Assembly: GCF_030450055.1 (NCBI RefSeq)
Contig: NZ_CP118480.1
Span: 496,001 to 560,000, forward strand
DNA length: 64,000 nucleotides
Direction: 5' to 3'
DNA from: Gallaecimonas kandeliae
GTDB taxonomy: Bacteria; Pseudomonadota; Gammaproteobacteria; Enterobacterales; Gallaecimonadaceae
In this document: positions 8,865 through 63,955 of the stretch, in pieces
Layout: every line of letters begins with the position of its first letter
Numbering within the stretch: the stretch's first letter is position 1
The notes under the pieces: generated by a model
Database searches by the model: none
What the model was told of the DNA's origin: nothing
The model's input: only the letters and a program-made list of their open reading frames with translations
Program-made: the position numbers and the translations under genes

Positions 8865-8977
8865 AATAAAGGCGCAATATCCTGAAACATTTGCTAAAGA
8901 AGAGATGCTTTGCGGGTCTGCCCTGCCTTTGTAACATGGCCCGTTGACATTGGATAAGTTCACCAAGGAAAAACGAC

Positions 8978-48643: not shown

Positions 48644-49966
48644 TCACCAGCGGCGTTTCTTGTGGCCCACCAGGGCGAAATGGAGGATGAAGGCATAACA
48701 GGGCAGCATCAGCAGGTAGGCCTGCTGGTTGCTGAAGAGATCCGACAGCAGGCCGTAGAGCAGCGGCACCAAGGCGCCGCCGGCGATCCCCATGATCAGC
48801 AGCGCCGAACCTCTCGCCGTGAATTTGCCGAGGCCGTCCAGGGCCAGGGGCCAGACGGCCGGCCAGACCAGGGCGTTGGCCAGGCCCAGCAGGGCCACGA
48901 AGGTGACCGTATTGGGCAGGGGCGGCAGGCCCAGCCAGCCCCAGAGCAGACTGGACAGCCAGTGATGGTCTGGGCTTGAGAACACCACCGACAGGCAGAG
49001 CACCACCCCCAGCAGTGCCGACAGGGTCAGGGCCTGGGCCTGCTTGATGACCCTCGGGATCAGCGCCAGTCCCAGCAGGTAGCCCAGCACCATGAAGGCC
49101 ATGGTGTAGGAGGTCAGGGAGGTGGCATTGGCCACTCCCAGCTTGGAACCGAAGAGCCCTATGGTGTCCCCCGCTATCACTTCCACCCCCACATAGAAGA
49201 AGAGGGTCAGGGCGCCCAGCACCAGCTGCGGGAAGTGCAGCACCGAGTGCTTATCGCCGTGGTCGTGCAGCTCGGCCTGCTCGTGCTCGATTTCCAGCTC
49301 CGGCAAGGGTGAGAAGTTCATGGCCACCGCCAGCACCAGCAACGCCAGGCCCATGCCGAGGTAGGGCAGGATAAGGCCGTGGGCCAGGGACGCCACCTGG
49401 GCCGCCCTGGCCGCCGGCTCCAGGGCCGCCACCGTCTTGGCGGTGATGCCCTGGAAATCTCCCAGCACCAGGGCGGTGAAGACGATGGGCGCCGCCACGC
49501 CGGCGCCCTTGTTGAGCAGCCCCATCACCGAGATGCGGGCGGCGGCACTTTCCTTGGGCCCTATGTGCACTATGTAGGGGTTGGAAGCGGTCTGCAGTAT
49601 GGTCAGGCCCGTGCCCACCACGAACTGGGAGACCAGGAAGATGGCGAAGGTCTGACTGAGGGCGGCCGGGATAAAGCCCAGGCAGCCCAGGGCGATCAGC
49701 CCCAGGCCCAGGCTCATGCCCTTCTTGTAGCCGGTGCGCTCCAGGAGCCAGGCCATGGGCAGGGCCGTGACCGTGTAGGCGATATAGAAGGAGAAGGCCA
49801 CGAACAGCGACTGGGTACTCGACAGATCGCAGACGATCTGCAGGAAGGGGATCAGGGCCCCGTTCAACCAGGTGATGAAGCCGAAGATGAAGAACAAGGT
49901 GCCGATGATGGCCATGGGCACCAGGCTGCTGCGGGTGTTGACTGGCGTACTCATAGTTGCGTCCAT
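48644..49966 (-). CDS. nagP: FucP-family sugar permease, probable N-acetylglucosamine transporter
   Basis: 440 residues, twelve predicted membrane helices, major facilitator fold of the FucP/GlcP group (GFITWLNGALIPFL and the TASNPYIVHIGP motif). Co-location with nagK, nagA and a SIS-type deaminase identifies it as NagP, the GlcNAc:H+ permease known from Shewanella and Xanthomonas, where import is not by a phosphotransferase system. A His-rich loop (EHEQAELHDHGDKHS) lies in the central cytoplasmic region. Last gene of the operon. Confidence 0.88.
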   Translation of the reverse strand: MDATMSTPVNTRSSLVPMAIIGTLFFIFGFITWLNGALIPFLQIVCDLSSTQSLFVAFSFYIAYTVTALPMAWLLERTGYKKGMSLGLGLIALGCLGFIPAALSQTFAIFLVSQFVVGTGLTILQTASNPYIVHIGPKESAAARISVMGLLNKGAGVAAPIVFTALVLGDFQGITAKTVAALEPAARAAQVASLAHGLILPYLGMGLALLVLAVAMNFSPLPELEIEHEQAELHDHGDKHSVLHFPQLVLGALTLFFYVGVEVIAGDTIGLFGSKLGVANATSLTSYTMAFMVLGYLLGLALIPRVIKQAQALTLSALLGVVLCLSVVFSSPDHHWLSSLLWGWLGLPPLPNTVTFVALLGLANALVWPAVWPLALDGLGKFTARGSALLIMGIAGGALVPLLYGLLSDLFSNQQAYLLMLPCYAFILHFALVGHKKRRW

Positions 49967-50016: not shown

Positions 50017-51132
50017 TCAGGCCATTTGGCCGCCTATCCAGCTTTGTTTTACTTCCAGGTCGTTGCTGAGCAATACCATGTCGGCCTTCATGCCCGGTTG
50101 CAGCAGGCCGCCGCCGTCCAGGCCCAGATAGCGGGCCGGGGTCAGGCCGGCCATTTGCAACGCCTGCTCCAGGCTGGCGCCCATCTGGGCCATGGCGTTG
50201 CGCACCGCCGTGGCCATGTCCAGGGCCGAGCCGGCCAGGCGGCCGTCCTTGTCTGTCATGCGGTCGCCGTCCCGGTAGAGGACGTCCCCGAAATAGGGAT
50301 AGTGGCGCTCGCTGCTGCCGACGGCGGCCATGGCGTCCGTCACCAGCATCAGCCCCTCCACGCCCTTGGCCTTGAAGGCCAGGCGGGCGCAGGCCGGGTG
50401 CAGGTGGTAGCCGTCGAGGATGATGCCGCAGCGGGCGTCACCGGCCAGGGCAGCGCCCACCATGCCGGGGCTGCGCGAACCCAGCTGCGACATGGCGTTG
50501 AAGAGGTGGGTGAAGCCGTCGGCACCGGCGGCCAGGGCGGCCTGGACGGTATCGAAGTCGGCGTCGCTGTGGCCCAGGCATACCTTGACCCCGGCCTGCA
50601 CCAGCTGGCGGATGTCTTCGGGATGGACAGTCTCTGGCGCCACCGTCAGCAGCCTCACTCCCAGATCCTCCCGGCAGTAGAGGGCCATCTCGGCCTGGCC
50701 AAGGCGGCGGATATGCTCGCGCTTGTGGATGCCCTTGCGGGGCTCGGACAGGTGCGGCCCTTCGAAATGGATGCCCAGCACCCCGGGCAGTTTTTGGGCC
50801 AGGGCCTGGCTGACGGCGGCGGCGGCGGCTGCCATCTTGGCCAGATCGTCGGTGATCAGGGTCGGCAGCATGGCTGTGGTGCCGAAGCGGGCATGGGCGG
50901 CCACCATGGCCGCCAGGCAATGGAGATCTGGGCTTTCGTTGAAGAGCTGGCCGCCACCGCCGTTGACCTGGATATCGACAAAGCCCGGCACCAGCATGCC
51001 GTCCAGCTTCTCGGCGCCGCTTGAGTTGTCCAGGCCCAGGGCCACCACCTTGTCGCCACTCAGGCTGATGGTGCAGTCCTGGTGCCACTGGTGGCCGTCG
51101 AAGAGCCGGGAGACGCGGTAGCTGCGCAGCAT
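50017..51132 (-). CDS. nagA: N-acetylglucosamine-6-phosphate deacetylase
   Basis: 371 residues, amidohydrolase fold. It has the metal-site region IHFEGPHLSEPRKGIH, CLGHSDADF, HLFNAM (substrate) and the catalytic Asp in LVTDAMAAVG. It turns GlcNAc-6-P to GlcN-6-P and acetate. Its ATG shares a base with the nagB-II stop (TGATG). Confidence 0.95.
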   Translation of the reverse strand: MLRSYRVSRLFDGHQWHQDCTISLSGDKVVALGLDNSSGAEKLDGMLVPGFVDIQVNGGGGQLFNESPDLHCLAAMVAAHARFGTTAMLPTLITDDLAKMAAAAAAVSQALAQKLPGVLGIHFEGPHLSEPRKGIHKREHIRRLGQAEMALYCREDLGVRLLTVAPETVHPEDIRQLVQAGVKVCLGHSDADFDTVQAALAAGADGFTHLFNAMSQLGSRSPGMVGAALAGDARCGIILDGYHLHPACARLAFKAKGVEGLMLVTDAMAAVGSSERHYPYFGDVLYRDGDRMTDKDGRLAGSALDMATAVRNAMAQMGASLEQALQMAGLTPARYLGLDGGGLLQPGMKADMVLLSNDLEVKQSWIGGQMA

Positions 51133-52124
51133 CAGAGGGTCCTCGTCACCTTGTTGAGGCCGGCCGGCGCGTCCGGGTTCAGGCCCAGCTGCACCGCCAC
51201 CTCGGCGATGTCCAGGTAGAAGCGTTGCAGCAGGCAGAGCGGCGCCAGCCTGGGGTGCACGGCTTCTTCCACCTTGAGGTGCAGCACCTTGGCGCCGCGA
51301 CCTTCCACGTCCGCTATCTGGGCTTGGTGGTTGGCGGCCGACTCGTCGTCTACCTGCAGTTCGATGACGGTCAGGGGCCTGGAGGCCAGGGTCACGGGGC
51401 CGTGGAGGAACTCGGCGCTGGAGAAGGCCTCGGCCTGGATGCCGCAGACCTCCTTGAGCTTGAGGGCCAGCTCCCGGGAGATGGCGTAGCCGAGGCCACG
51501 CCCCAGCACTATGCCGTGGCGCAGCGCCTTGAGGTCGTCCAGGCGCAGCTGGGGCTGGCCCTTGCAGACCTTGTCCAGCACCTGGGGCAGGGCGGTGAGG
51601 GCCTGTTCCAGCTCCTTGTTGCGGGTCCAGGCTGCCACCAATTGGGCGATGGCCGAGAGGGTGCAGAGGTAGCTCTTGGTGGCGGCCACCGCCGTCTCGG
51701 GGCCGGCCTTCAGTGGCAACACGGCGTCGGCCAGTTCGGCCAGGGGCGAGCGTTCGTCGTTGACCAGGGCCAGCACCATGGCGCCGGCGGCCTTGGCCGC
51801 TTCGGCCTGGGCCAGGATATCGGGGCTGCGGCCGCTCTGGGAGATCACCAGCACCAGGGCGTCCTTGAGCTGCAGCTGGCGGCCATAGACGCTGGTCACG
51901 CTGGGGGCCGCTGCGCAGACAGGTACCCCGGTTTCTATTTCAATCAAGTACTTGGCGAAGACGCCGGCATGGTCGGAAGAGCCGCGCCCCACCATCATCA
52001 CCAGCCTGGGCTTGAGCTTGCGGATCCGCTCTCCCAGCATGGCCGCCAATGTGGCGTTGTGGCTCAGTTGTTCGGCGATGCGCTGGGCGCTTTCACGGGC
52101 CTCGGTAGCCATCAGGGTGGTCAT
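51132..52124 (-). CDS. nagB-II: Glucosamine-6-phosphate deaminase, SIS type (NagB-II)
   Basis: 330 residues with two SIS domains, related to the isomerase half of GlmS but without the glutaminase domain. Motifs: MVGRGSSDHAGVFAKYLIE, VISQSGRSPDILAQAEAAK and LGRGLGYAISRELALKLKE. In marine gammaproteobacteria this form replaces the classical NagB and makes fructose-6-P. It overlaps nagK (ATGA, 52121-52124) and nagA, so the three are coupled. Confidence 0.92.
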   Translation of the reverse strand: MTTLMATEARESAQRIAEQLSHNATLAAMLGERIRKLKPRLVMMVGRGSSDHAGVFAKYLIEIETGVPVCAAAPSVTSVYGRQLQLKDALVLVISQSGRSPDILAQAEAAKAAGAMVLALVNDERSPLAELADAVLPLKAGPETAVAATKSYLCTLSAIAQLVAAWTRNKELEQALTALPQVLDKVCKGQPQLRLDDLKALRHGIVLGRGLGYAISRELALKLKEVCGIQAEAFSSAEFLHGPVTLASRPLTVIELQVDDESAANHQAQIADVEGRGAKVLHLKVEEAVHPRLAPLCLLQRFYLDIAEVAVQLGLNPDAPAGLNKVTRTL

Positions 52125-53014
52125 ACGGCTTTTCCTCCTGCCGAGCGTTGTTGGGCAAAGAAAATGGCGCCCATTTCGGGCTCTTGCAGCGCCGGGGACA
52201 ACAGCGCCGCGGTTTGGGAAGACAGATGCGGCTGCCAGAGCGGCGCCAGGCCACCGATCATCGACAGCCGGAGCCGGCCGGCCGGGCTCAGCTTCTGGGC
52301 CAGGGCGTCCAGGTAGGCGGCGCCCTCATTGATGAGGCCGCCGGCCAGGGCGTCGCCGGCCTTGGCCTCGGCAAAGACCAGGCCCGCCAGGCGGGCGAAG
52401 ACGGCGGACGGTTGGCCGGAGAACTGGTCCATCAGGGCAGTGGCGTCCTGGGTGCCGGTGCTTTCCAGCACCCTCTCGACCAGGGAGGTATCCGGGCCCA
52501 GCCCATCCAGGGCCAGCAAGGTGGCCTGCACGGCGGCCAGCCCCAGCCAGGCGCCGCTTGCCTTGTCACCTAGGGGGAAGCCGTGCCCGCCCAGAAACTG
52601 TTGCTCATCGCCGTCCTGGGCGAAGCCGCTGGAGCCGGTGCCGGTGATGATGACGGCGCCTTCCTCGCCCTGGTGGGCGCCGAGGCAGGCGATGTGCAGA
52701 TCCGTGGTCAGGAAGAAGGCGGCGAAGGGGTGGGCCCAGGCCAACATGGCGCTGTGGGTGCGGGGGGCGTTGATGCCGGCAAGGCCTGCCCCCACTATCA
52801 GGTGCCCCAGCAGGTTCTGGGACAGGCCGGCCGACGCCAGGGCGCTGCTGGCGCTGGCCAGTACCGCCTCCTGGGCCCTTTCCAGGCCCTGCACCGGGTT
52901 GGCCGGGCCCGCCAGGCCTTCTCCCAGTATGCCGCCGGCCGGGCTGTAAAGCAGGGCCCGGCACTTGCTGCCGCCGCCGTCAATGCCCAGGTAAAGCTTC
53001 TCGTCACTCATCAT
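52121..53014 (-). CDS. nagK: N-acetylglucosamine kinase (BadF/BadG ATPase family)
   Basis: 297 residues of the ASKHA fold: GIDGGGSKCRALLY (phosphate 1), VIITGTGSSGFA (adenosine/phosphate 2) and a C-terminal adenosine loop SMIGGLAPLW. It phosphorylates the GlcNAc brought in by NagP, replacing the phosphotransferase route of E. coli. First gene of the nagK-nagB-nagA-nagP operon; operator sites lie 77 and 124 bp upstream. Two consecutive ATG codons (53014 and 53011) are possible starts. Confidence 0.93.
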   Translation of the reverse strand: MMSDEKLYLGIDGGGSKCRALLYSPAGGILGEGLAGPANPVQGLERAQEAVLASASSALASAGLSQNLLGHLIVGAGLAGINAPRTHSAMLAWAHPFAAFFLTTDLHIACLGAHQGEEGAVIITGTGSSGFAQDGDEQQFLGGHGFPLGDKASGAWLGLAAVQATLLALDGLGPDTSLVERVLESTGTQDATALMDQFSGQPSAVFARLAGLVFAEAKAGDALAGGLINEGAAYLDALAQKLSPAGRLRLSMIGGLAPLWQPHLSSQTAALLSPALQEPEMGAIFFAQQRSAGGKAV

Positions 53015-53090: not shown

Positions 53091-53108
53091 AATGACAGCG
53101 TTGTCATT
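53091..53108. promoter_or_regulatory. NagR-like operator upstream of nagK
   Basis: AATGACAGCGTTGTCATT, a 7-4-7 palindrome (AATGACA/TGTCATT) with the central CG of LacI-family operators. On the minus strand it contains ATGACA, which can serve as the -35 of the nagK promoter, so binding would repress. The same core occurs at 55808-55821. Confidence 0.75.
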
Positions 53109-53181: not shown

Positions 53182-55755
53182 TCAGTGGCCGCTGGCCACC
53201 GCCAGGGGACGGCTGCCGCGGGGCCAGCCCGGCAGGCGGCTGCGCACTTCCACCTTGCCTTTGACGGCGACTCCCGCCCGGTAGGGCAGCCAGGGGCCGC
53301 CGTCCTGGCGGTATTGGATGGTCAGCCCTGGCCAGGGCAGGTTGGCGTGCAGCTGGCCACCTTCGATGACGGCGCCTGGGGGAGGCAGGCGGAACATCAC
53401 CTGGCTTCGGGCCAGCTCCGGCAGCGCCTTGTGGACCAGGGCGGCGGCAAAGCCCTGCCAATCGGCCAGCTGCTGCTGGCGGCGGGCGGCGTCGAAGTGG
53501 CCGCTGTGCTGGTCGTAGTGGCGGCCAGGCACATAGGGCAGTTCCCAGGGGGCTTTGTGCCAGGCCCGTTCGGCGAAGGCGAACAGGCGGGGGAAGAGCA
53601 TGTACTGGGCGCGGCTGTCGCTGCGCACCGTTTCGCTCCACAGCTGGGCCTGGAAGCCGGTGATCTGCTGGCCGTCCTTGAGGGGGCTGGCGTCGTCCGC
53701 CTGGTAAGGGTGGCCCATGCGGTCAGTCCAGAGTTCGGCCAGGGCCGGCAGGTTGTCGGGCATGAACTGGAACACCTGGAAGCTGTCGGTGGCGCGGGAG
53801 CCCCAGTAGTAGCCGGGCTCCTTGGGATCGGCCTGGTAGGGGAAGTCGAAGTAGAGCACGTCCGGCAGGGACAGCACCGTATCCCAGCCGCGGTTGGCGA
53901 AATCCTGGGCCTTGTTGTGGCCGCCCCAGTAGAGGGTGTCCCAGATGTTGGCCTGGATCCGGGGTGCCAGGGCCTGGCGTTTGACATGGCTGAGGCCGTC
54001 GCTCCAGGCCGCCGCCGTGATGCCCATGTCGTTGACCATGTGGGTGATCCGCTGCACGAAGTAGCCGGTCAGCTGCTCGGCGTCGGCCAGGCCTTCCTGC
54101 TTCATCAGCGCCTGGCAGCGGGGGGAGTTCTTCCAGGCCCCGGCCGTCTCGTCGGCGCCGATGTGGTAGCGGCGCAGCGGCACTCCCACGGCCTGGTGCA
54201 TGGCCTGGACTTCGGACAACACCTTCTGGATGAAGTTGTAGGTGCTGTCCAGGCAGGGGTTGAGGGTGTTGTCGTCGTAGTACTGCACCGAGCTGTAGAC
54301 CGTCTTGTCGTCGAAGTCGCTGAGCAGGTAGCGGTTGGCTTGTTCTGGTTTCTCGGCGCGCATCAGCTGGCGGTAGCGGGCCAGCATGGCCTTGATGGCG
54401 GCGCGGGAGTGGCCTGGCATGTCCAGGGAGGGGATCACCTCGATATGGCGGGCCTGGGCGTAGAGCAGGATCTGCTGGTAGTCGGCCACGCTCAGGTAGC
54501 CGTTGACCGGGGTGTTGCGGCTTGGGCCGCTGCCCAGCATGGGCAGCAGGCATTGCTGCTCCTTGGGGTCGAAGCAGCGGTAGGCGCCGAGGTCGGTCAG
54601 CTCCGGCAGGCCCGGGATCTGCAACCGCCAGCCTTCGTCGTCGGCCAGGTGCAGGTGCAGCTTGTTGAGCTTGAGGCTGGCCATGCTGTCCAGCAGCCCC
54701 AGGATCATGGCCTTGCTGTGGAAGTTGCGGGCGATGTCCAGGTGGACGCCGCGAAAGCCGTAGCGGGGGGCGTCCTCGAAATGGCCCTGGGGCACTGTCC
54801 TGGTGGCGGGGTCCAGCAACGAGGCAAGGCTTTCCAGGCCGTAGAAGTAACCGGCGCCGCTGCCGGCCGAAACCTTGACGCCCCCATCGTCGATGTCGAG
54901 CCGGTAGGCCTCTGCGTGCAGGGTGGCGGACGGGGCCAGTTGCACCGGCATCCCGGCCGGGTCGTCCTTCACCCCCAGCTTGGCCAGCCGCGCCAGGGCC
55001 GCTTCCACCGCCGGCGTCGCCACCAGGCGGATGCCGCCGGCCAGGCTCAGGCGCTGGCCATTGGGCTGGCTGGAGGCCATGGCCGGGATGATGCGCTCAC
55101 CGGCCTTGGCCGGAGCTGCCGCCAGGGTTTGGTTCTGGTGGTAAAGCCAGGCCGCCGTGGCCTGGGGGATCTGATCTTCCGGGTTGCGGCGCTGCTGGGC
55201 CGGCATTGTGAAAGGGGCTGCATGGGGCAGATAGTGCAGGCCGCTGTCGGGGTCGATGCGCTCCTCGGTGGAGGTCACTGTCCGCGGCGCCAAGCCGGGA
55301 GCCGCCAGGAAATAGTTGGGCATCACGTCGGATTCGGACACCGACCAGAAGGCGGCCTTGAACGGGATGCGATAGCGCTGGTGGGCCTTGAAGCCCTTGA
55401 AGGCGGCCGTCGGCACCAGGCGGTGCAGGTCGCCGTTGAGGTGCTGGATGTCGAAGAGCGCGCTGCCGTCTGACTCGATGGGCACAGTGCTGGAGAAGTA
55501 AAGCCGCCAGCCGCTGGCCGGCAGATCCACCGGCAGCTCAAGGCTCAGGCTGGCGTCGAAGCAGTGGCCGTTGCCCTCCTTGGGATCGCAGCCCCGGGCC
55601 TGGAGGTTGTCCTCGACCCGGTATTGCACTTGGAGTTGGCGGGCCAGGCTATCCAGTTCCTGCTGGACCAGGGGCTGGGCCAGGGCCGGTGCGCAAAGCG
55701 CCAGGGCGGCGAACCACAGGCGGCAGAGCCGGGGCAGGTGCTGACCAATCCTCAT
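53182..55755 (-). CDS. Secreted beta-N-acetylhexosaminidase (GH20, chitobiase type)
   Basis: 857 residues. Signal peptide (1-26, no lipobox), carbohydrate-binding CHB_HEX domain (about 30-200), GH20b domain (about 230-320), catalytic barrel (about 325-760) with the acid pair Asp535-Glu536 in HIGADETAGAW, then a C-terminal immunoglobulin-like domain. Close in plan to Serratia chitobiase, it releases GlcNAc from chitobiose and chito-oligosaccharides in the periplasm or outside. An operator of the NagR type lies 50 bp upstream, matching the nag operon. Confidence 0.94.
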   Translation of the reverse strand: MRIGQHLPRLCRLWFAALALCAPALAQPLVQQELDSLARQLQVQYRVEDNLQARGCDPKEGNGHCFDASLSLELPVDLPASGWRLYFSSTVPIESDGSALFDIQHLNGDLHRLVPTAAFKGFKAHQRYRIPFKAAFWSVSESDVMPNYFLAAPGLAPRTVTSTEERIDPDSGLHYLPHAAPFTMPAQQRRNPEDQIPQATAAWLYHQNQTLAAAPAKAGERIIPAMASSQPNGQRLSLAGGIRLVATPAVEAALARLAKLGVKDDPAGMPVQLAPSATLHAEAYRLDIDDGGVKVSAGSGAGYFYGLESLASLLDPATRTVPQGHFEDAPRYGFRGVHLDIARNFHSKAMILGLLDSMASLKLNKLHLHLADDEGWRLQIPGLPELTDLGAYRCFDPKEQQCLLPMLGSGPSRNTPVNGYLSVADYQQILLYAQARHIEVIPSLDMPGHSRAAIKAMLARYRQLMRAEKPEQANRYLLSDFDDKTVYSSVQYYDDNTLNPCLDSTYNFIQKVLSEVQAMHQAVGVPLRRYHIGADETAGAWKNSPRCQALMKQEGLADAEQLTGYFVQRITHMVNDMGITAAAWSDGLSHVKRQALAPRIQANIWDTLYWGGHNKAQDFANRGWDTVLSLPDVLYFDFPYQADPKEPGYYWGSRATDSFQVFQFMPDNLPALAELWTDRMGHPYQADDASPLKDGQQITGFQAQLWSETVRSDSRAQYMLFPRLFAFAERAWHKAPWELPYVPGRHYDQHSGHFDAARRQQQLADWQGFAAALVHKALPELARSQVMFRLPPPGAVIEGGQLHANLPWPGLTIQYRQDGGPWLPYRAGVAVKGKVEVRSRLPGWPRGSRPLAVASGH

Positions 55756-55805: not shown

Positions 55806-55823
55806 AGTGACAGCGTTGTCATT
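55806..55823. promoter_or_regulatory. NagR-like operator between hexosaminidase and sulfotransferase genes
   Basis: AGTGACAGCGTTGTCATT shares its core TGACAGCGTTGTCA exactly with the site in front of nagK. On the minus strand ATGACA lies 17 bp from GATAGA, a possible promoter of the hexosaminidase. The divergent TPR-sulfotransferase starts 80 bp away on the other side, so both could be controlled. Confidence 0.75.
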
Positions 55824-55902: not shown

Positions 55903-57429
55903 TTGGTCATCACCTTTTCCCTGCCTCCTGATCCCCAGCCGCTGAGCCTGGGCCTGCACCAGGCCCTGCGGCTGCTGAGCGGCCTGATGCAGGGCGGCAA
56001 GCCCCTGCAGGCCCAGGCCTTGGCCCAGGCCCTGGCCGAGCAGGCCCCCGACGAGCCCAGCGTCCAGGTGTCGCTGCTTAGGCAGCTGCTGCTGGGCAGC
56101 GATTTTGCCGGCCTGGAGCGCCAGGCCAGGAGGGCGCTGGCCCTCTTCCCGCACTTGATGCCCGCCTGCCTCGGCCTCTGCCTGGCCCTGCGTTACCGCC
56201 ACGCCCATCTCGAGGCCTGCGAGCTGCTGGAGAATTGGCTTGAGGACGGCGGCTTTGGCGAGGCCGAAAAGCTGGCCCTGCGCCACCAACTGGGAGTGCT
56301 GCAAAAGGAGCTTGGCCTGCTGGCCGAGGCCAAGGCCAACTTCGACCTCTGCCTGGCGGCGCGGCCCGAGATGACCGAGGCCTACTGGAGCAAGGCCGAC
56401 CTCGGCGTGCCGGAGGAGAGGGAGCTGGCGGCCATGGCCGAGCTGTACCAGAGCCGCCCCTGGCCGCCCCAGGCCGAGGCCCAGCTCTGCTACGCCCTCG
56501 GCCAAGGCTGGGAGCGCCTCGGGCAGGCGGAGCCGGCCTTTTCCTGGTACCAGAAGGGGGCCAGGGCCAGGCGCCAGGTGCAGCCCTATGACGGCGAGGC
56601 GGCCAGGGCTGAGCTGGCAAAGATCCAGGCGGCCTTTCCTTTGGGGCAGGCTTTGTCCCAGGCCGAGGCGGGGCAGGGGCCTATGCCCATCTTCATCTGC
56701 GGCCTGCCGCGCAGCGGTACTTCGTTGCTGGAACAGTTGCTTTCGGCCCTGCCGGAGGTGAGCGCCCTGGGGGAAACGGTGGAAATGGCCCAGGCCAGCC
56801 AGCAGCTGTTGTTGGCCAAAGGCCTGGCGCAGCCCTTTCCCGACTGGGTGGCGGCATTGGACAAGGCCGACTGGCAGGCCCTGGGGGACGCTTATCTGCA
56901 GCGCATAGGGCCGCGCTGCGAGGGGGGCTGGGCCACCGACAAGATGCCGATGAATTTCAAGGCCATAGGCCTTATCAAGCAGGCCCTGCCCCAGGCCAGG
57001 ATCTTGCACTGCAGGCGCGCCCCCATGGACAACCTCTGGGGCTGCTACAAGCAGCTGTTCGCCGACGGCGCCGCCTTCAGCTACGGCCTTGAGGATCTGG
57101 CCGACTATTACCTGGCCTATGAACAGCTGATGGCCCACTGGCACCGGCTGCTGCCGGGGCAAATTCTGGACGTGCAGTACGAGACCCTGGTGCGTGAACC
57201 CCACCAGACCCTGGTCGGCATCTTGCGCTTCGTCGGCCTCGGGCCCAGCGAGGAGCGCATCGGCCAGTGCCTCGACTTCCACCACGGCGGCGGCGCCGTG
57301 CCGACCTTGAGCGCCAGCCAGCTGCGCCAGGGGCTGTCGGCAGGGGGCATAGGCCGCTGGCGGCGTTTTGCCCCCCAGCTCGCGCCCTTGCGGGCCCGCC
57401 TGGAAGCGGGCGGTATTGCGGTCGATTAA
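55903..57429 (+). CDS. TPR-repeat sulfotransferase family protein
   Basis: 508 residues. TPR-like helical pairs fill the first half (about 15-225; a clear unit is YALGQGWERLGQAEPAFSWYQKGA). The C-terminal sulfotransferase domain has the PAPS-binding loop GLPRSGTSLLEQLL (about 265-278) and the 3'-phosphate region RRAPMDNLWGCYKQLF. No signal peptide. The start is TTG with AAGGAG 5 bp before. Acceptor unknown. Such proteins are often beside TonB receptors in Alteromonadales and Caulobacter. Its TAA stop overlaps that of the convergent halogenase gene. Confidence 0.85.
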   Translation: MVITFSLPPDPQPLSLGLHQALRLLSGLMQGGKPLQAQALAQALAEQAPDEPSVQVSLLRQLLLGSDFAGLERQARRALALFPHLMPACLGLCLALRYRHAHLEACELLENWLEDGGFGEAEKLALRHQLGVLQKELGLLAEAKANFDLCLAARPEMTEAYWSKADLGVPEERELAAMAELYQSRPWPPQAEAQLCYALGQGWERLGQAEPAFSWYQKGARARRQVQPYDGEAARAELAKIQAAFPLGQALSQAEAGQGPMPIFICGLPRSGTSLLEQLLSALPEVSALGETVEMAQASQQLLLAKGLAQPFPDWVAALDKADWQALGDAYLQRIGPRCEGGWATDKMPMNFKAIGLIKQALPQARILHCRRAPMDNLWGCYKQLFADGAAFSYGLEDLADYYLAYEQLMAHWHRLLPGQILDVQYETLVREPHQTLVGILRFVGLGPSEERIGQCLDFHHGGGAVPTLSASQLRQGLSAGGIGRWRRFAPQLAPLRARLEAGGIAVD

Positions 57430-58934
57430 CCCAGGTTGCCCAGCAGCTCCAGGTAATGGCGATGGTCCAGGGCCTGGTGGCGGGCCTGTTCGTATTGCCG
57501 GGCCAGGCGCCGGAACAGGGCCTGGGCCTGCTGCTCATCGAGGTTCAACCCCAGCTCGGGATAGTGCTGCATGCCGTAGAGCACGTAGCGGTAGTTCTCG
57601 TCGGTGAAGGTGGTGCTGTAGCCGCCGGCGAGATCCAGGTATTCGCAGACCTTGTGCTTCCAGGCGTCCAGCTGAGTGGCCAGGGCCGGGCAGTGGCGCA
57701 CCGACTCCCTGGCCCGGCGCCAGAAGGGGGTGTCGTCCCTGTCGGTCAGGCAGTAGTGCAGCACGATGAACTGTTTGAGATCCTCGTAGATCCCCAGCAT
57801 CAGGCGGTTGTAGGAGTCCCGCACCGGCTGGTCCAGCGTCTTGGCCGAGAGGTGGGTGGCCAGCAGCCGGGCGCCCATGTTGATGACGTGCAGCCCCGTT
57901 GACTCCAGGGGCTCGATAAAACCCCCGGCCAGGCCCATGGCGATGCAGTTGCCCACCCAGAACCGCTGGCGGCAGCCGACTTTCATGTCCAGGTGCACGG
58001 CCTTGAGCACCTCGGCCTGGGGGCCCAGGTAGTCGCGCAGTGCCTGCTCCGCTTCTTCCCGGGTCAGGGCGTTGCCGTCGTAGACGTAGCCGGTGCCCTG
58101 GCGGTTGACCAGATCGATTTCCCAGACCCAGCCGTGGTCCAGGGCCGTGGCCTGGGTGTAGGGCTTGGGTTTGACGTCCCCTTCATAGGCTTTCTGGATG
58201 GCGACGGCGCGGTTCACCGGTAGCGCCTCGGCGAAGGAGCGCCAGTTGCCGGGGCTGAGCTTTTCCATCAGCAGGCCGCGAAAGCCGGTGCAGTCGATGA
58301 AGATGTCCCCGCCGACGCGGCCCTTGTCGGTCTGCACCGCCACTATGTTGCCGTCCACCACGTCGACGTCAGAGACGGTGGCCTCGATATGCTCGACCCC
58401 GGCCTCCACCGCCTTGCGGCGCAGGAAGCGGGCCATCAGGGTGGCGTCCAGGTGGTAGCCGTAGGGCACCAGGCCCTGGTAGGGGGCGGAATTCTTACCC
58501 TTGGCGCAGCGGCCTTCGGCCACCAGGTGGCTGCTGGTGCAGACCGCCTCGTCGTAACGGCCAGGGGGCCTGTCCTGCATCGCCAGCCAGGTGGAGGAAA
58601 TGTCGATGTTGGCGCCGGAGAGGTTGGCCTCGAAGGGGTGGAAGTACTGGTGCATCTGGCCGGCCACCGGCTTCATCCAGTTGCGGAACAGGATGCCGGA
58701 TTTGAGGGTGCCGTTGGCTTCTTTGAGCAGTTCGTTCTCGTCCAGGCCCATGGCGGCGAAGAAATAGCGGATGCTGTGCACCGTCGACTCGCCGACGCCG
58801 ATGATGCCGATGTCGGGGCTCTCCACCACCCGTATTTGGCGGCTGCCCGGCTGCTGGTTGAAGTAGCGGTTGAGGTAGATGGCGGTCATCCAACCGGCGG
58901 CGCCGCCGCCGACTAGGGTGATGCTGGGGGCCAT
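57426..58934 (-). CDS. Flavin-dependent tryptophan halogenase homologue 1
   Basis: 502 residues of the Trp_halogenase family. FAD loop GGGAAGW (9-15), GVGES, catalytic-type Lys78 (GTLKSG), the W-x-W-x-I motif at 269-273 (WVWEI, then Asp where Pro is usual), and the acid/Ser pair Glu344-Ser345 in EPLEST. By comparison with PrnA (Lys79, Glu346, Ser347) the halogenation residues are kept. It would use FADH2, O2 and halide, with an unknown substrate. Last gene of the sapC-halogenase operon; it ends within 4 bp of the sulfotransferase end (TTAA shared). Confidence 0.88.
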   Translation of the reverse strand: MAPSITLVGGGAAGWMTAIYLNRYFNQQPGSRQIRVVESPDIGIIGVGESTVHSIRYFFAAMGLDENELLKEANGTLKSGILFRNWMKPVAGQMHQYFHPFEANLSGANIDISSTWLAMQDRPPGRYDEAVCTSSHLVAEGRCAKGKNSAPYQGLVPYGYHLDATLMARFLRRKAVEAGVEHIEATVSDVDVVDGNIVAVQTDKGRVGGDIFIDCTGFRGLLMEKLSPGNWRSFAEALPVNRAVAIQKAYEGDVKPKPYTQATALDHGWVWEIDLVNRQGTGYVYDGNALTREEAEQALRDYLGPQAEVLKAVHLDMKVGCRQRFWVGNCIAMGLAGGFIEPLESTGLHVINMGARLLATHLSAKTLDQPVRDSYNRLMLGIYEDLKQFIVLHYCLTDRDDTPFWRRARESVRHCPALATQLDAWKHKVCEYLDLAGGYSTTFTDENYRYVLYGMQHYPELGLNLDEQQAQALFRRLARQYEQARHQALDHRHYLELLGNLG

Positions 58935-58949
58935 GGGGCTGTCCTTCTA

Positions 58950-60497
58950 TCAGATCTTTTGCAGGCCATGTTGGCGGATACGGTCCAGTAGCTGGCGGTG
59001 GGGCAGCAGCTGGCTGCCGGCCTGCTGCAACCGTGCCGAGAGCCTTGCCTGGGTGTGGCGGGCGCCGGCTGGGTCCGCCAGCAAGTCGGGGCGGCCGGCC
59101 AGATCGGTGGGGTAGTGCATGCCGTACAGCACGTAGAGGTAGTTCTCCAGGCCGAAGACGGCGGAAATGTCGGTGAAGTCGTAGTGGCTGGGCAACTGGT
59201 GGCGCCAGTAGGCCAGGTTGTCCGCCAGGCTGTCGGGGATGGTGGCGGCGCTGCGGTTGTCCAGCCAGAAGGCGCTGTCGTCACGCTTCGACAGGCAGTA
59301 GTGCAGCTTGACGAAGTCGATGACCCTTTCCCAGGCGTAGCCGACCCTTTGGTTGAAGCGGCGGGCCGCGGCCGGGATCTGGGCCTGGCTGGCGGGGAAC
59401 TGGTCGGCCAGCATCCGGGCCGTGATGTCGAACATCAGCAGGCCCGTGGCTTCCAGGGGCTCCACGAAGCCCTGGGACAGCCCTATGGCGACGCAGTTTT
59501 TCTCCCAGAATCTCTCCCGGTAACCCACCTGCATGGGGATGCGCCTCAGGACCAGGTCGTCGCCCCCTGGGCCCATATATTGGCGCAGCACCGCCTCGGC
59601 CTGCTCATGGCTGCTGTGGGCCGAGGAGTAGACGTAGCCCAGGCCGCGCCGGCCGGTCAGGCCTATGTCCCAGATCCAGCCCGCTTCCTTGGCGGTGGCC
59701 AGGGTGGCGCAGGGGATGGGCTGGGCCGGATCCTGGTAGGGCAGTTGTACCGCCAGGGCCTGGTCGCAGAGCAGGAACTGGCGCTGGTCCTTCAAGGGCA
59801 CCTTCAGCCCCTGGCCCAGCAGCAGGGCGCCGAAGCCGCTGGCGTCCACGAAGAGATCCGCCTCCAGGGCGCCGGCGCTGTCGGTATGGAGGCAGCGGAT
59901 GCTGCCGTCGGGGTGGTAGCCGATGTCCAGCACCTTGGCGCGGATGTACTCCACCCCCAGTTTGCCGGTGCCGTGGCGGGCCAGCAGGGCACCGAACTTG
60001 GCGGCGTCCAGGTGGTAGGCGTATTGGCAGACCCCCTGGTATTCGGCCTGGGTGGCCAGCTTGGGCCCCAGGCCCGCTTCGATAAGCCGGCCCTGGATGG
60101 CGACGGCGTCGGCATAGCTGCCTTGGGGATCGGCCAGCCAGAAGGGGGTGGGATCGCCGCCGAGGATCTCCGGGTAGTCGAAGAGGTGGTGGTAGCTGTT
60201 GCTGCCGTGGCGGGCCGGGTCCTGCTCCCAGTCGATGAACTGGATGCTCTGCTTGAAGGTGGCGTCGCACTGGCGGATCAGCTCGGTTTCGCTGATCCCC
60301 AGGTAGGCCAGGCTGTTGCGGATGGCCGGTACAGTGCCTTCCCCCACCCCTATGGTGGGGATGTCGGGGGCTTCCACCAGGCAAACCCTGACGCCCTGCG
60401 GCAGCCGGCTTTGCAGCCGCTTGGCCAGGTGGTTGGCGGCCAGCCAGCCGGCGGTGCCGCCTCCCACCACCAGTACCTTGCGCAGTCCCTGGCCCAT
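58950..60497 (-). CDS. Flavin-dependent tryptophan halogenase homologue 2
   Basis: 515 residues from the ATG at 60497, 5 bp after the sapC stop. FAD loop VGGGTAGW (11-18), GVGEG, Lys82 (TFKQS), W-x-W-x-I at 274-278 (WIWDI, then Gly) and Glu349 followed by Ala350 in EPLEAT instead of Ser. Diverged from homologue 1 over most of the length, so they are not recent duplicates. The missing Ser near the presumed site suggests altered or lost halogenation. Between sapC and homologue 1 in one operon. An open frame upstream of 60497 overlaps sapC and is not coding. Confidence 0.86.
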   Translation of the reverse strand: MGQGLRKVLVVGGGTAGWLAANHLAKRLQSRLPQGVRVCLVEAPDIPTIGVGEGTVPAIRNSLAYLGISETELIRQCDATFKQSIQFIDWEQDPARHGSNSYHHLFDYPEILGGDPTPFWLADPQGSYADAVAIQGRLIEAGLGPKLATQAEYQGVCQYAYHLDAAKFGALLARHGTGKLGVEYIRAKVLDIGYHPDGSIRCLHTDSAGALEADLFVDASGFGALLLGQGLKVPLKDQRQFLLCDQALAVQLPYQDPAQPIPCATLATAKEAGWIWDIGLTGRRGLGYVYSSAHSSHEQAEAVLRQYMGPGGDDLVLRRIPMQVGYRERFWEKNCVAIGLSQGFVEPLEATGLLMFDITARMLADQFPASQAQIPAAARRFNQRVGYAWERVIDFVKLHYCLSKRDDSAFWLDNRSAATIPDSLADNLAYWRHQLPSHYDFTDISAVFGLENYLYVLYGMHYPTDLAGRPDLLADPAGARHTQARLSARLQQAGSQLLPHRQLLDRIRQHGLQKI

Positions 60498-60502
60498 GTC
60501 GA

Positions 60503-61231
60503 TCAGCCCTGCTGCAGCGCCTGGTATTTGCGACTCAGGCGGTGGATCTGATTCATGGAGCAGAGATGGGCGTAGATGGGCGCCAGCAGGCCGCGGGAGC
60601 GGAACCACTCGAAGTCTTCGGCGCTAAGGGCGTTGAGGCGGGCCTCGTCGACGACGTAGATGCCGTTCACCATCACGTTCTCACCGCTTTCTAAGCGGAG
60701 CGTCAGTTCGCGGCCGATCAGCAGATCCTTGTCGGCCAGGGCCTTGATGAAGAGCTCCGTCATGTCGCTGTCGTTGACGTACTGCATCAGGGCCTGGACG
60801 CGGTCCTGCAGGTAGGGGCTCTGTTCGCCGTTTTCGTCGAACAGGGCTTCACCCTGGTGGGCGCTGACCAGTTCGCTGTTCTCGTCGATGCAGATGAGGG
60901 CGTTTTCCCTTTCTTCGTCCTGGAAGCTGACGGCGAAGGGCGGGTTGCGCAGGGCCAGGGGCACGAAGGGGGAGTCGAAATCCTCGCCCTGGCAGTAGAG
61001 GTTCTCACCGGCGCGCAGCCCCATCATGGCCACGGCGTTGAGCTGGCCGCTCTGACCGTGCTTGACGAAGATCACCGGGAATTCGCAGGCGGCGCCGACA
61101 AACTCACGCAGCACCAGGGGCACCAGGTGGTCGCCGGCGAAGCTCTGGAAGCGGGGCTGGCTGTCGACCTTGAGGTAGCCGTGGCTGTTGCTGTTGAGGG
61201 GAACGAAATTGACTTGGGGACTGTTAGACAT
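60503..61231 (-). CDS. SapC family protein
   Basis: 242 residues, SapC family (PF07277-type) with FVPLNSNSHGYLKV at the start and ENALICIDENSE in the middle. Despite the name, taken from a Campylobacter S-layer gene, the role in these bacteria is unknown; homologues are constantly found with TonB receptors, halogenases and cupins in sugar loci. No signal peptide, so cytosolic. First gene of the sapC-halogenase operon, 99 bp downstream of the TonB receptor with a terminator between. Confidence 0.86.
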   Translation of the reverse strand: MSNSPQVNFVPLNSNSHGYLKVDSQPRFQSFAGDHLVPLVLREFVGAACEFPVIFVKHGQSGQLNAVAMMGLRAGENLYCQGEDFDSPFVPLALRNPPFAVSFQDEERENALICIDENSELVSAHQGEALFDENGEQSPYLQDRVQALMQYVNDSDMTELFIKALADKDLLIGRELTLRLESGENVMVNGIYVVDEARLNALSAEDFEWFRSRGLLAPIYAHLCSMNQIHRLSRKYQALQQG

Positions 61232-61242
61232 TTGTTACTCCG

Positions 61243-61262
61243 GCTTGGGTGTTTGCCCAAGC
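61243..61262. repeat. Small hairpin in the sapC leader
   Basis: GCTTGGG-TGTTTG-CCCAAGC, 7-bp perfect stem, 12 bp upstream of the sapC start codon on the minus strand. Confidence 0.4.
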
Positions 61263-61290
61263 ATGCCTTAACTGGACCGGCCTTGGATAT

Positions 61291-61314
61291 GAAAAAGGGG
61301 CCCGGGCCCCTTTT
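61291..61314 (-). terminator. Terminator of the TonB receptor gene
   Basis: AAAAGGGGCCCGGGCCCCTTTTT is a perfect palindrome with flanking A and T runs; active on both strands in principle. Partial read-through could link sapC to the receptor. Confidence 0.8.
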
Positions 61315-61330
61315 CCAATTTGGCGCAGGA

Positions 61331-63955
61331 TCAGAACTTGGCGCTGACGCCGAAGGTGATCATGCGGGCCATCTCGTACTCGTACAGCGGGAAGCCTTTG
61401 GCGAAGCCGCTGTAGTAGCTGGGGGTGCCGTTGTTGTTGCCGAATTCCTTGGATTTGGATTCGGTGAGGTTGGTGCCGTCCAGCTTGAGGTCGATGTTGT
61501 CGGTCAGGTGGTAGACCATGCTGAGATCCAGGCTGCCGTAGGAATCGTGCAGGCGATTACCGTAGGAACCGGCCTCACGCACCATGTACTTGTCGCGCCA
61601 GTTGTAGGCCAGGCGGACCTGGAAGGCGTCGTTCTCGTAATAGCCGGTGATGTTGTAGGCGTTGGGCGAGCTGTCGGTCAGCACACCGTTACCGTCGGTC
61701 GGGAAGGTATCCGGATCCGTGGAGGTGTCGGTGTAGGTGTAGTTGAGCTGGGTACCGAAGCCGTTGCCGAAGTCCTGCTGGTATTGCAGCTCGATACCTT
61801 CGATGGCCGCATCCTTGCCGTTGGATTTCTCCTGGACAGTCCAGCCGTAGGGCTGTTCGGCCGCCGGCAGGTCGTAGGGGATATCGGCGGCTGAGGCCTG
61901 GTATTCGCTGTAGGTCACGAAGTTCTTCACGTCCTTCTTGAACAGCGCCACAGAGGCCATGGAGCTGTCGTCGAAGTACCACTCCAGGCTGACGTCGAAC
62001 TGGTCGGAAATGAAGGGCTTGAGGCCGACGTTACCCACTACCCAGTACTGGTTGTTGGGCTTCTCGTCGTTGGCGCCGAGGGCGCTGGGGTTGACGTACA
62101 TGTCCACGTACTGGGGACGGGCCATCACCCGGGCGGCGGCGAAACGCATCAGGAGGTCGTCGCGCAGGTCCAGCACCAGGTTGAAGCTGGGCAGCCATTC
62201 GGCATAGCTGGCCTTGCTGTTGGTGCGCGCGTCGTTGAGGTAGTAGATGGAGGTGGCGTCGGTGTGCACGTAGCGCAGGCCGAAGTTACCGCGGAAGTTG
62301 TCGCCGTGGTACTTGGCCATCACATAGGCCGCGGTGTTGTTCTCCTCTATCTCGCTGTGGGAACCCAGTACCTCCTGCTCGCCGATGATGCTGGCCTTGG
62401 CCCAGTCTTTGAGCTTGCCGGCATCGAACTTGATGATCTGGTAGTTGCCCGAGCCCACATCGATGAGGCCGTCGTTGAGGTCGGCGGTGGAGATGGTGGG
62501 GTTGAAGTTCGGGTCCTGGAGCTGGGTGTACTGCAAGCTGCTACTGGTGTGGTGGCTGTACTTGGCACCGGTCTTGACGGCATAGATGGGGCCGAGATCG
62601 ACGTCGAAGTCGATATCACCCTGGTAGTAGGTCTCGTCGTCGGTCTTGGGGGTGCGGTTGAAGTTGGCACCCTGCTGCATGGTCAAGGAGCCGGGATCGT
62701 AGGTGGAGTAGGTCTGGTTGTTGGGACCTATGCCGTCGAAGCTCCAGCTCTGGTGGCCATGGGTGAAGTCGTAGGTGCCGTTGTTGATGGCGGTGCCGCC
62801 GGTACCGTCGTCCACGGCCATCTCGAAGTCGGTGCCGCCGGAGGAAGTGGTGCGGCCGGCCTGCAGCTTCAGCTTGTAGCTGTCGCCGGTGAAGTTCATC
62901 ACCAGGTCCAGCACGTCGGAATTCATGGTGGCCTCCCGGGGGCGGGCCTGCCAGAAGGCGACGTTGAGGGGGCCTTTGACGGGGGTGATGTTGTCACCCG
63001 AGCCCAGGAATTGCTCGGTGGTGCCGGAACCCCAGGTGGTGTCGGCCTGGGTCAGCCAGAGGGCGTAGTTGGTGTTGTCGGCCTTCATCTCCATCTTGAT
63101 GTAGTTCAAGACGAAGTCGAGGTTCTCGGTGGGGTCGTACTGGACAGTGGCGTTGATGGCGGAGCGGTCGCGGTCCTGGATGAAACCGACAGGGCCGGCG
63201 CCCCACTGCCAGAAGGCCTCGTTGCCCTGGCGCTGCAGGTGGCGGGTCTGCTGCACGCCGCTGACCAGGATACCCAGGTTCTCGTCCTTGTTCTTCCAGC
63301 TGACCAGGCCCGAGTACTGGGGATCCGTCTTGCCGGAGTCGCTGGTGTAGAGGCCTTCGACAGAGCCGAACAGGGTCAGGGGATCCAGATCCAGGGGCTT
63401 GCGGGTATTGATGATGACGGTACCGCCGACGCCGCCTTCGGCGAGATCGGCCTGGGAGCTCTTGTACACTTCCAGGTTGCCCACCAGTTCGGAGGGCAGC
63501 AGCTCGTAGTTGAAGCTGCGCTTGGCCGGCTCCAGCACGAACCAGCCGGTGGAGGCGACGTTCTGGCCGTTGAGGGTGGTCAGGGTGAAGTCGGGGCCGG
63601 CGCCGCGGATGGACACCGAGGAGCCTTCGCCGAACTGGCGCTGTATGGTGACGCCGGGCACCCGCTGCAGGGACTCGGCCACGTTCCGGTCGGGGAACTT
63701 GCCGATGTCTTCGGCGGTGATGGAGTCGACGACGGCATCGGAGAAGCGCTTGTCGTTGAGGTTGGCGGCCGAACTGGCACGGATCCCTCTGACCTCGATA
63801 CGCTCGACGTCGTCATTCTTGTTCTTGGCGGTGGCCGTGGCGGCTGTGTCCTGCTGGGCCGAGGCGTCGTCGGCGGCCCAGGCAGGCAGGCTGAGCGCAC
63901 CCAAGAAGGCCAACTTCACAGCGAGAGCGCACGAGCTCAGTTTGCGAATTTCCAT
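61331..63955 (-). CDS. TonB-dependent receptor (probable chito-oligosaccharide/GlcNAc uptake)
   Basis: 874 residues. Signal peptide (1-27), a low-complexity spacer, TonB box VERIEVRGI (about 50-58), plug domain (about 70-190, with VAESLQRVPGVTIQR and SSVSIRGAGP) and a 22-strand barrel ending in Phe (ITFGVSAKF). The layout and size belong to the Xanthomonas/Caulobacter-type receptors for oligosaccharides. Its neighbours point to a chitin-derived substrate, but that is inference. Its promoter and any operator lie mostly beyond the right edge of the window. Confidence 0.92.
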   Translation of the reverse strand: MEIRKLSSCALAVKLAFLGALSLPAWAADDASAQQDTAATATAKNKNDDVERIEVRGIRASSAANLNDKRFSDAVVDSITAEDIGKFPDRNVAESLQRVPGVTIQRQFGEGSSVSIRGAGPDFTLTTLNGQNVASTGWFVLEPAKRSFNYELLPSELVGNLEVYKSSQADLAEGGVGGTVIINTRKPLDLDPLTLFGSVEGLYTSDSGKTDPQYSGLVSWKNKDENLGILVSGVQQTRHLQRQGNEAFWQWGAGPVGFIQDRDRSAINATVQYDPTENLDFVLNYIKMEMKADNTNYALWLTQADTTWGSGTTEQFLGSGDNITPVKGPLNVAFWQARPREATMNSDVLDLVMNFTGDSYKLKLQAGRTTSSGGTDFEMAVDDGTGGTAINNGTYDFTHGHQSWSFDGIGPNNQTYSTYDPGSLTMQQGANFNRTPKTDDETYYQGDIDFDVDLGPIYAVKTGAKYSHHTSSSLQYTQLQDPNFNPTISTADLNDGLIDVGSGNYQIIKFDAGKLKDWAKASIIGEQEVLGSHSEIEENNTAAYVMAKYHGDNFRGNFGLRYVHTDATSIYYLNDARTNSKASYAEWLPSFNLVLDLRDDLLMRFAAARVMARPQYVDMYVNPSALGANDEKPNNQYWVVGNVGLKPFISDQFDVSLEWYFDDSSMASVALFKKDVKNFVTYSEYQASAADIPYDLPAAEQPYGWTVQEKSNGKDAAIEGIELQYQQDFGNGFGTQLNYTYTDTSTDPDTFPTDGNGVLTDSSPNAYNITGYYENDAFQVRLAYNWRDKYMVREAGSYGNRLHDSYGSLDLSMVYHLTDNIDLKLDGTNLTESKSKEFGNNNGTPSYYSGFAKGFPLYEYEMARMITFGVSAKF

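Follow-up and report, generated by a model that had tools for sequence, protein, structure and literature searches.

Co-variation of a flavin-dependent halogenase homologue with one tryptophan of a TonB-dependent receptor at a chitin-utilization locus of Gallaecimonas kandeliae

What do flavin-dependent halogenases act on when their genes lie outside biosynthetic clusters, and why do some of them travel with sugar receptors? BrvH, Xanthomonas enzymes and other halogenases of this kind are described as lacking a known native substrate in passages of two papers (PMC5945002, PMC7336383). The question is raised anew by a stretch of 64,000 nucleotides from Gallaecimonas kandeliae (contig NZ_CP118480.1, positions 496001-560000 of a 3.84-Mb single-contig genome; hereafter the window), in which four minus-strand genes encode, in order, a TonB-dependent receptor, a SapC family protein and two flavin-dependent halogenase homologues, HalA and HalB. 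The receptor (874 amino acids, 61331..63955) scores 618 bits with TIGR01782 (cut-off 310) and has TonB plug and barrel domains, and SapC (242 amino acids, 60503..61231) scores 222.5 bits with PF07277 (cut-off 28.9). HalA (58950..60497, coordinates that rest on the chosen Met start) and HalB (57426..58934) both match PF04820, the Pfam Trp_halogenase model, with scores of 411.6 and 409.8 bits (cut-off 21). Coordinates and domain scores agree with the order, common direction and intergenic gaps (99, 5 and 15 bp) given in a previous sequence-only reading of the window, and its view of the four genes as one unit is borne out. A chance grouping is implausible because the domain scores are high and the gene order recurs in other genomes.

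The new element of the present analysis is that HalB appears to track one tryptophan of the receptor, W308. A reading in which HalB halogenates W308 on the receptor precursor, and in which the four genes make up a chito-oligosaccharide receptor under NagR-type control with its own modification crew, is favoured here tentatively, as a serious possibility that stops a little short of being probable.

Receptor residues that track HalB

Receptors of the same clade were aligned (45 distinct sequences, 39 with HalB nearby and six without). Gln303 and Trp308 are found in 39/39 receptors with HalB and in 1/6 without it, and are the two strongest columns of the receptor. They are spaced as TQ, four residues, W (TQxxxxW), which in the window reads TQADTTW (codons 302-308, 63032..63052, minus strand), a loop motif and candidate target of HalB. 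Among the 233 columns that are invariant in the 39 receptors, only Q303 and W308 are changed in at least four of the six HalB-less receptors, and 210 are unchanged in all six. Thus, loss of HalB is not a marker of a generally diverged receptor. Six of the other invariant tryptophans are kept in 6/6 HalB-less receptors, and W638 is kept in 4/6.

When whole genomes were searched with HalB, the closest match in those carrying the six HalB-less loci had 34-39% identity, compared with 63% in a HalB-bearing control. All typed matches in these genomes belong to the halogenase types T1 or T2 and none to the HalB type, T3 (types are defined below), the weaker matches without a locus being untyped. When the motif was sought anywhere in the receptor, as T or S followed by Q, four or five residues and W, it was present in 39/40 receptors with HalB and in 8/101 without. 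The Q303/W308 counts are by aligned column; a search for the loop by text anchor lacked its anchor in 62 of 141 receptors, and missed the motif-bearing L215 and L296.

A receptor model built from 38 sequences (mean pLDDT 82) places W308 in a 31-residue stretch (301-331) between strands 279-300 and 332-356. Since long connections follow the odd-numbered strands, and given the usual barrel topology, this stretch would be the third outer loop, predicted to face outside. All 50 Foldseek matches listed for the receptor are TonB-dependent transporters.

Halogenase types and distribution of the cassette

In a tree of 169 distinct halogenase homologues, HalA falls in group T2 (n=120, support 0.999) and HalB in group T3 (n=24, support 0.994). 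The remaining 25 sequences are termed T1, which match BrvH and Xcc4156 by score and are not demonstrated to be a single clade. BrvH and Xcc4156 are themselves absent from the tree, and are placed by bit scores (the T1 member L138 scores 633 to Xcc4156 and 462 to BrvH). The sequence-only reading had pointed to Ser after the key Glu in one enzyme and Ala in the other; this is correct and clade-wide, with Ala in 120/120 T2 and Ser in 24/24 T3. The catalytic Lys (K79 of PrnA) and Glu (E346), whose roles are taken from passages of the BrvH paper (PMC5945002), are kept in 120/120 T2 and 24/24 T3; no role for the Ser/Ala position was found. The WxWxIP motif is incomplete: WxWxI is kept, with P replaced by D in 24/24 T3 (WxWxID in HalB), and by G or A in 109/120 T2 (WxWxIG in HalA), P being retained in 9/120. 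HalA and HalB are therefore classed here as PF04820 members by domain and catalytic pair, and not by the full motif.

The types also differ in their surroundings. T1 genes have a cupin gene at most two genes away in 20/25 cases, and lie in nag loci in 0/25. T3 contexts (n=24) comprise 19 with at least two nag genes, one with hex, three behind an operator of the kind described below, and one on a 6.6-kb contig. With genome repeats counted, 50/50 T3 loci seen also have T2, and 49/50 have SapC. Twenty-two of these loci were fetched through HalA and are therefore uninformative on the pairing of HalB with HalA; the other 28, reached via the receptor, SapC or nagB, contain both types without exception. 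By these comparisons HalB is a separate clade, nearly confined to nag-type loci and always with HalA, and it does look like an enzyme of separate role, as had been proposed for the second halogenase.

The nearest entries to HalA in the Protein Data Bank (PDB) are 9lu2 (531 bits), 2pyx (427) and 9ltb (372), all listed as tryptophan halogenases. HalA is accordingly of the 2pyx/9lu2 type and belongs to a general receptor-SapC cassette. HalB is distant from these, scoring 318 bits to 9lu2 and 311 to a tryptophan 5-halogenase, and so about equally distant from both. The codes 9LU2, 9LUQ and 9LTB turned up in no paper of the open-licence literature searched, therefore no function can be transferred to HalA. 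The indole-active BrvH and Xcc4156 (PDB 6frl and 6y1w) belong to the same PF04820 family, have the same catalytic Lys and Glu and, in the passages available, likewise have no known native substrate; BrvH is there also noted to have a second halogenase gene nearby, 42.7% identical. However, they match the T1 group (mostly WxWxIP, with a cupin neighbour and outside nag loci), unlike HalA in T2 and HalB in T3, and their scores are 248 / 217 bits to HalA and 234 / 222 bits to HalB (6frl / 6y1w). With HalA nearest to 9lu2 and HalB in a clade of its own, the kinship to BrvH and Xcc4156 drawn in the sequence-only reading is thus a comparison to cousins, and small sugars, which that reading listed for assay, are without support as halogenase substrates in this analysis.

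Column tests of other halogenase types against their receptors were rejected as confounded. In the nag group, many receptor columns compared with HalA split with the receptor clades (W705, 57/62 vs 0/7), and the test of T1 against diverse other receptors was confounded likewise.

A third halogenase (T1, 622 bits with PF04820) is present in the G. kandeliae genome (C1:995000-1014900, L173), where it lies at 9484-10992 directly after another TIGR01782 receptor (6596-9415). The TIGR01782 cut-off is exceeded by only three receptors of this genome; the surroundings of two were read, and both have a halogenase neighbour.

SapC is present in 139 of 397 sampled genomes of the phylum, and in one of four other genomes of the genus. 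Neighbourhoods of 20 kb were inspected for 100 SapC places, picked non-randomly from the matches listed. SapC was called in 98 of these, a halogenase lies at most three genes away in 34, a receptor and a halogenase lie within four genes in 33, and at least two nag genes are present in seven (the G. kandeliae locus included). A frequent order in the other cassettes is receptor-Hal-SapC-cupin-Hal-DUF6445, with LacI genes near some. Towards the end of receptor-SapC-cupin-halogenase cassettes, DUF6445 (PF20043) is seen repeatedly (L076, L143, L150, L153-L156), and it may, with Cupin_8, be a further oxygenase of this system.

As a single probe of genome contigs, SapC found no relatives, and a 28-sequence SapC alignment was too diverse to serve as a query, so an alignment of nag-type HalA was used instead. 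Among the 80 named loci from this search (the best 80 of 579 confirmed), a receptor lies within three genes in 77 and SapC in 71, and 37 carry at least two of nagK, nagB, nagA and hex. The 37 include Bowmanella, Shewanella, Ferrimonas, Rheinheimera, Thalassotalea, Colwellia and a Woeseiaceae metagenome-assembled genome (MAG), and two are alphaproteobacterial, one of them a Hellea MAG. A cupin was called in 0/37, and a Pseudokordiimonas locus has only hex of the four genes. The sequence-only reading had taken an absence of nag co-occurrence outside this lineage as grounds for refutation, and with 37 such loci the opposite was found. Within the order, 22 nagB-II places from 21 of 148 genomes were all inspected: 11 have SapC and 11 show none, some of the latter on short or cut stretches. 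A halogenase is present at 10 of the 11 SapC-bearing places, and the contig ends at the remaining one. The expectation that the set follows the nag genes thus holds in part: it recurs at nag loci of many Gammaproteobacteria and a few Alphaproteobacteria, but receptor-SapC-HalA is also found elsewhere, and half of the nagB-II loci inspected in the order showed no SapC. The cassette is neither needed by nag loci nor confined to them.

The same nag locus occurs in two genomes of the same genus (L159 and L160), but there it lacks SapC, the halogenases and the sulfotransferase-domain gene sulT described below. LacI, NagB, NagA and NagP of G. kandeliae are 70-85% identical to those of the two genomes, and NagK 67% (called in one of them), whereas the receptor is 36% identical and Hex 44-47%. 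Nag receptors from four genomes of other families share 58-62% identity with the G. kandeliae receptor, and those of Bowmanella and an Aliiglaciecola share 73-74%. As the receptor and Hex are far more diverged from the sister genomes than the other nag proteins are, the pattern is most simply explained by exchange of the block from receptor to hex as one unit. Plain insertion of a cassette into the locus of the sisters was rejected, since the receptor and hex are replaced too.

Other arrangements of SapC and halogenase genes were also seen. Many SapC genes without a receptor cassette occur within three genes of very long frames (2,600 to 3,200 amino acids), which is another SapC context (L078, L081-L085, L087, L089, L090, L099, L102, L107 and L110). 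In Caulobacter- and sphingomonad-type genomes, a receptor and a HalA-type gene are divergent from cupin and SapC genes (L259, L263, L267, L269, L270, L272-L274 and L276). In the nag locus L149 (8528-11657), two SapC genes flank one halogenase and there is no HalB.

Chitin regulon and neighbouring genes

A 14-base operator, TGACARCGYTGTCA, has exactly four copies in the genome. They lie before nagK (window 53093), in the interval between hex and sulT (window 55808), before the receptor operon (23 bp past the window end), and at 3708362, before a GH18/ChitinaseA_N chitinase. The two sites inside the window are exact matches to the palindrome TGACAGCGTTGTCA (53093..53106 and 55808..55821), and shuffles of the window gave none. 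With one mismatch allowed, seven places are found versus five for a reversed control pattern, therefore only exact sites are informative. As this operator is common to the receptor operon, nagK, hex and the chitinase, the halogenase genes would, by computation, belong to the chitin regulon in this genome. The regulatory link between the receptor operon and the chitin genes appears strong, and the chitin link of the sequence-only reading is upheld. Of nag loci in the order with both receptor and upstream DNA in view, 12/14 have an operator no more than 450 bp from the start of the receptor, comprising 7/7 with a halogenase and 5/7 without.

A NagR regulon of chitin and N-acetylglucosamine use with a TonB receptor is known from Shewanella and relatives, and chitin regulon reconstructions list such receptors. 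The locus resembles this regulon: a LacI-type regulator gene stands directly beyond the window end, by the receptor, and the common palindromic operator precedes nag, hex and receptor genes. The kinase NagK (52121..53014, NF046058, 371.3 bits, cut-off 370), the glucosamine-6-phosphate deaminase NagB-II (51132..52124, NF046059, 542.5 bits, cut-off 430), the N-acetylglucosamine-6-phosphate deacetylase NagA (50017..51132, TIGR00221, 269.5 bits, cut-off 225.65), the NagP-like MFS transporter (48644..49966, NF046060, 553.4 bits, under the cut-off of 625) and the GH20 beta-N-acetylhexosaminidase Hex (53182..55755, by domain match) are all encoded on the minus strand. What differs is the addition of SapC, HalA and HalB to the receptor operon, and the apparent link of HalB to a receptor loop.

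SulT (55903..57429, plus strand) has a C-terminal sulfotransferase domain (PF13469). Its gene is convergent with that of HalB, the two ends overlapping by 4 bp, and its start adjoins the hex operator. The sulfotransferase family to which it belongs includes protein-tyrosine sulfotransferases. SulT lies beside the halogenases in 18 of 44 loci of the same clade with a readable neighbour, but comparison with the receptor tyrosines gave no good candidate (best Y845, 6/18 vs 0/26), and the column screen also returned non-tyrosine columns, such as Q250 (14/18 vs 1/26). Judging by its family and position, SulT may be another receptor-modifying enzyme. Two genomes named Pseudoalteromonas luteoviolacea (L222 and L247) have different receptor cassettes at seemingly the same locus, as judged by open-frame lengths and operators; L222 (strain NCIMB 1942) has SulT and HalB, and L247 (strain NCIMB 1944) has neither and also lacks W308. 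HalB is likewise present in Bowmanella dokdonensis (L199). SapC was modelled with very high confidence from 60 sequences (pLDDT 95.9, pTM 0.90), and comparison of the model with the PDB gave no fold match (best E 0.27).

Possible targets of HalB and HalA

If HalB acts on W308, the receptor would first exist as an unfolded cytoplasmic precursor. HalB would recognise its TQxxxxW segment and halogenate the tryptophan with bromide or chloride, O2 and FADH2 supplied by a general flavin reductase. The precursor would then be exported and folded, with the modified tryptophan ending on the third outer loop, where it may tune sugar stacking or protect the loop against phage, bacteriocins or proteases. 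HalA and SapC would serve a wider receptor family; as a proposal only, SapC may help to present the precursor and HalA may act on another site. A broader claim, that HalB is a dedicated outer-membrane-protein halogenase of one outer-loop tryptophan, and that HalA/SapC and cupin cassettes form a widespread modification system for TonB-dependent receptors in many marine bacteria and alphaproteobacteria, is possible but doubtful. Peptide substrates have been proposed in print for BrvH and Xcc4156 (PMC7336383). The peptide tryptophan halogenase MibH (PDB 5uao) is described as acting on a tryptophan within a peptide, as proposed for HalB; however, its target is a lanthipeptide and not a membrane receptor, and it is distant by sequence (180 bits to HalB, 150 to HalA).

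Several points weigh against halogenation of W308 by HalB. Both the substrate of the receptor and the side on which the loop lies are themselves deduced. Of the four HalB losses on the tree, three are accompanied by loss of W308, and L152 retains W308 although it has no HalB. HalB-less lineages, on which all three losses of W308 fall, make up 0.19 of the branch length. For a single column named in advance the probability of this is 0.0069, but it becomes approximately 0.055 after correction for eight invariant tryptophans and is non-significant over 233 columns. Two further observations speak for the proposal, with limits. In Pseudoalteromonas, such a receptor occurs in 8 of 108 genomes, and besides one fetched earlier the other seven are concordant (7/7), three having HalB and TQADTTW and four having TRGADD and no HalB. 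However, absence of HalB was judged there only from 3 kb downstream, and the set adds little independence because two of the seven genomes were already included and several are near copies. At L252, the sole HalB in another receptor clade, the same loop also carries such a motif, SQGADAARW, which the relatives shown beside the L252 receptor lack. However, it fits only with one extra spacing residue, noticed after the fact, and the L252 HalB is the most diverged (43% identical, the next 55%). On the opposing side again, no all-or-none tryptophan was found in T1-linked receptors (best W255, 12/14 vs 3/11), and the split of nag-group HalA columns along receptor clades means that co-variation alone can mislead. 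Among 18 further hand-picked loci, the operator was seen before the receptor in 11 and unseen in seven, including three alphaproteobacterial loci (L203, L208 and L227). The co-variation of HalB and W308 is post hoc, involves few independent events, and is thus suggestive and not proof. Wider samples at a strict threshold (E 1e-200) contained receptors of this type only in G. kandeliae itself among 369 genomes of its class, and in 0/385 of the class of G337, and therefore gave no further independent losses.

The loop could also co-vary with HalB for another reason, such as product binding. If the W308 loop bound a ligand made by HalB or present in the same niche, the receptor would be no substrate at all. 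The loop is predicted to be extracellular, where ligands bind, and co-variation is blind to the difference between binding of a substrate and of a product. However, this would require a hitherto unseen halogenated glycan or metabolite, and the operator ties the receptor to chitin genes, so that we regard it as very improbable. It appears quite improbable that HalB and the loop have no functional tie and were co-inherited by chance in a mobile receptor cassette. The cassette does seem to move as a block, as seen from the identities to the same-genus genomes, and there are few independent losses, but the survival of 210/233 invariant columns after loss of HalB argues against this.

Action of HalB and HalA on a small aromatic, such as an indole-like signal or defence compound made during chitin use, with the receptor merely co-regulated, is unlikely. 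BrvH and other flavin-dependent halogenases do act on free indole in vitro, and some on phenol or naphthols, according to parts of PMC5945002 and PMC8269204, and operon partners can be co-regulated without a common substrate. However, the indole activity of BrvH is low and its authors, in the passages concerned, doubt indole as the native substrate; no enzyme of aromatics biosynthesis is present among the ten annotated genes from nagP to the receptor in the window; and the tracking with one receptor loop would be left unexplained. That HalB hydroxylates or otherwise oxidises the receptor tryptophan, with no halogenation, is rather improbable. QhpG is a flavoenzyme that hydroxylates tryptophan in a protein, and among NCBIfam models it gives both enzymes their best score; all 24/24 HalB-type sequences have WxWxID in place of WxWxIP; and Cupin_8 and DUF6445 genes, possible oxygenases, are present in related cassettes. 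The QhpG scores (NF049967, 44 and 41.2 bits) are however far under the cut-off of 240, the Lys and Glu needed for halogenation are intact in 24/24 HalB-type sequences, and nearly all PDB relatives among the matches listed have halogenase names.

In the open-licence literature, no paper was found that joins tryptophan halogenase with SapC, or with TonB-dependent and N-acetylglucosamine, and the papers returned by related searches, judged from their listings, describe no such cassette, although subscription journals or databases may contain earlier reports. By word search, the available parts of PMC5945002 and PMC7336383 contain neither SapC nor TonB, and that of PMC8269204 no TonB. A part of PMC11337851 speculates on a role for an uncharacterised tryptophan halogenase in the interaction of viruses with host receptors.

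The co-variation gives an orphan halogenase a named and checkable target, a single tryptophan that lies in a seven-residue motif of the receptor from its own operon. Were HalB to act on W308, a new kind of protein modification would exist at the bacterial surface. The association of halogenases with sugar receptors would then have an explanation, and peptide-specific halogenases would become available as tools.

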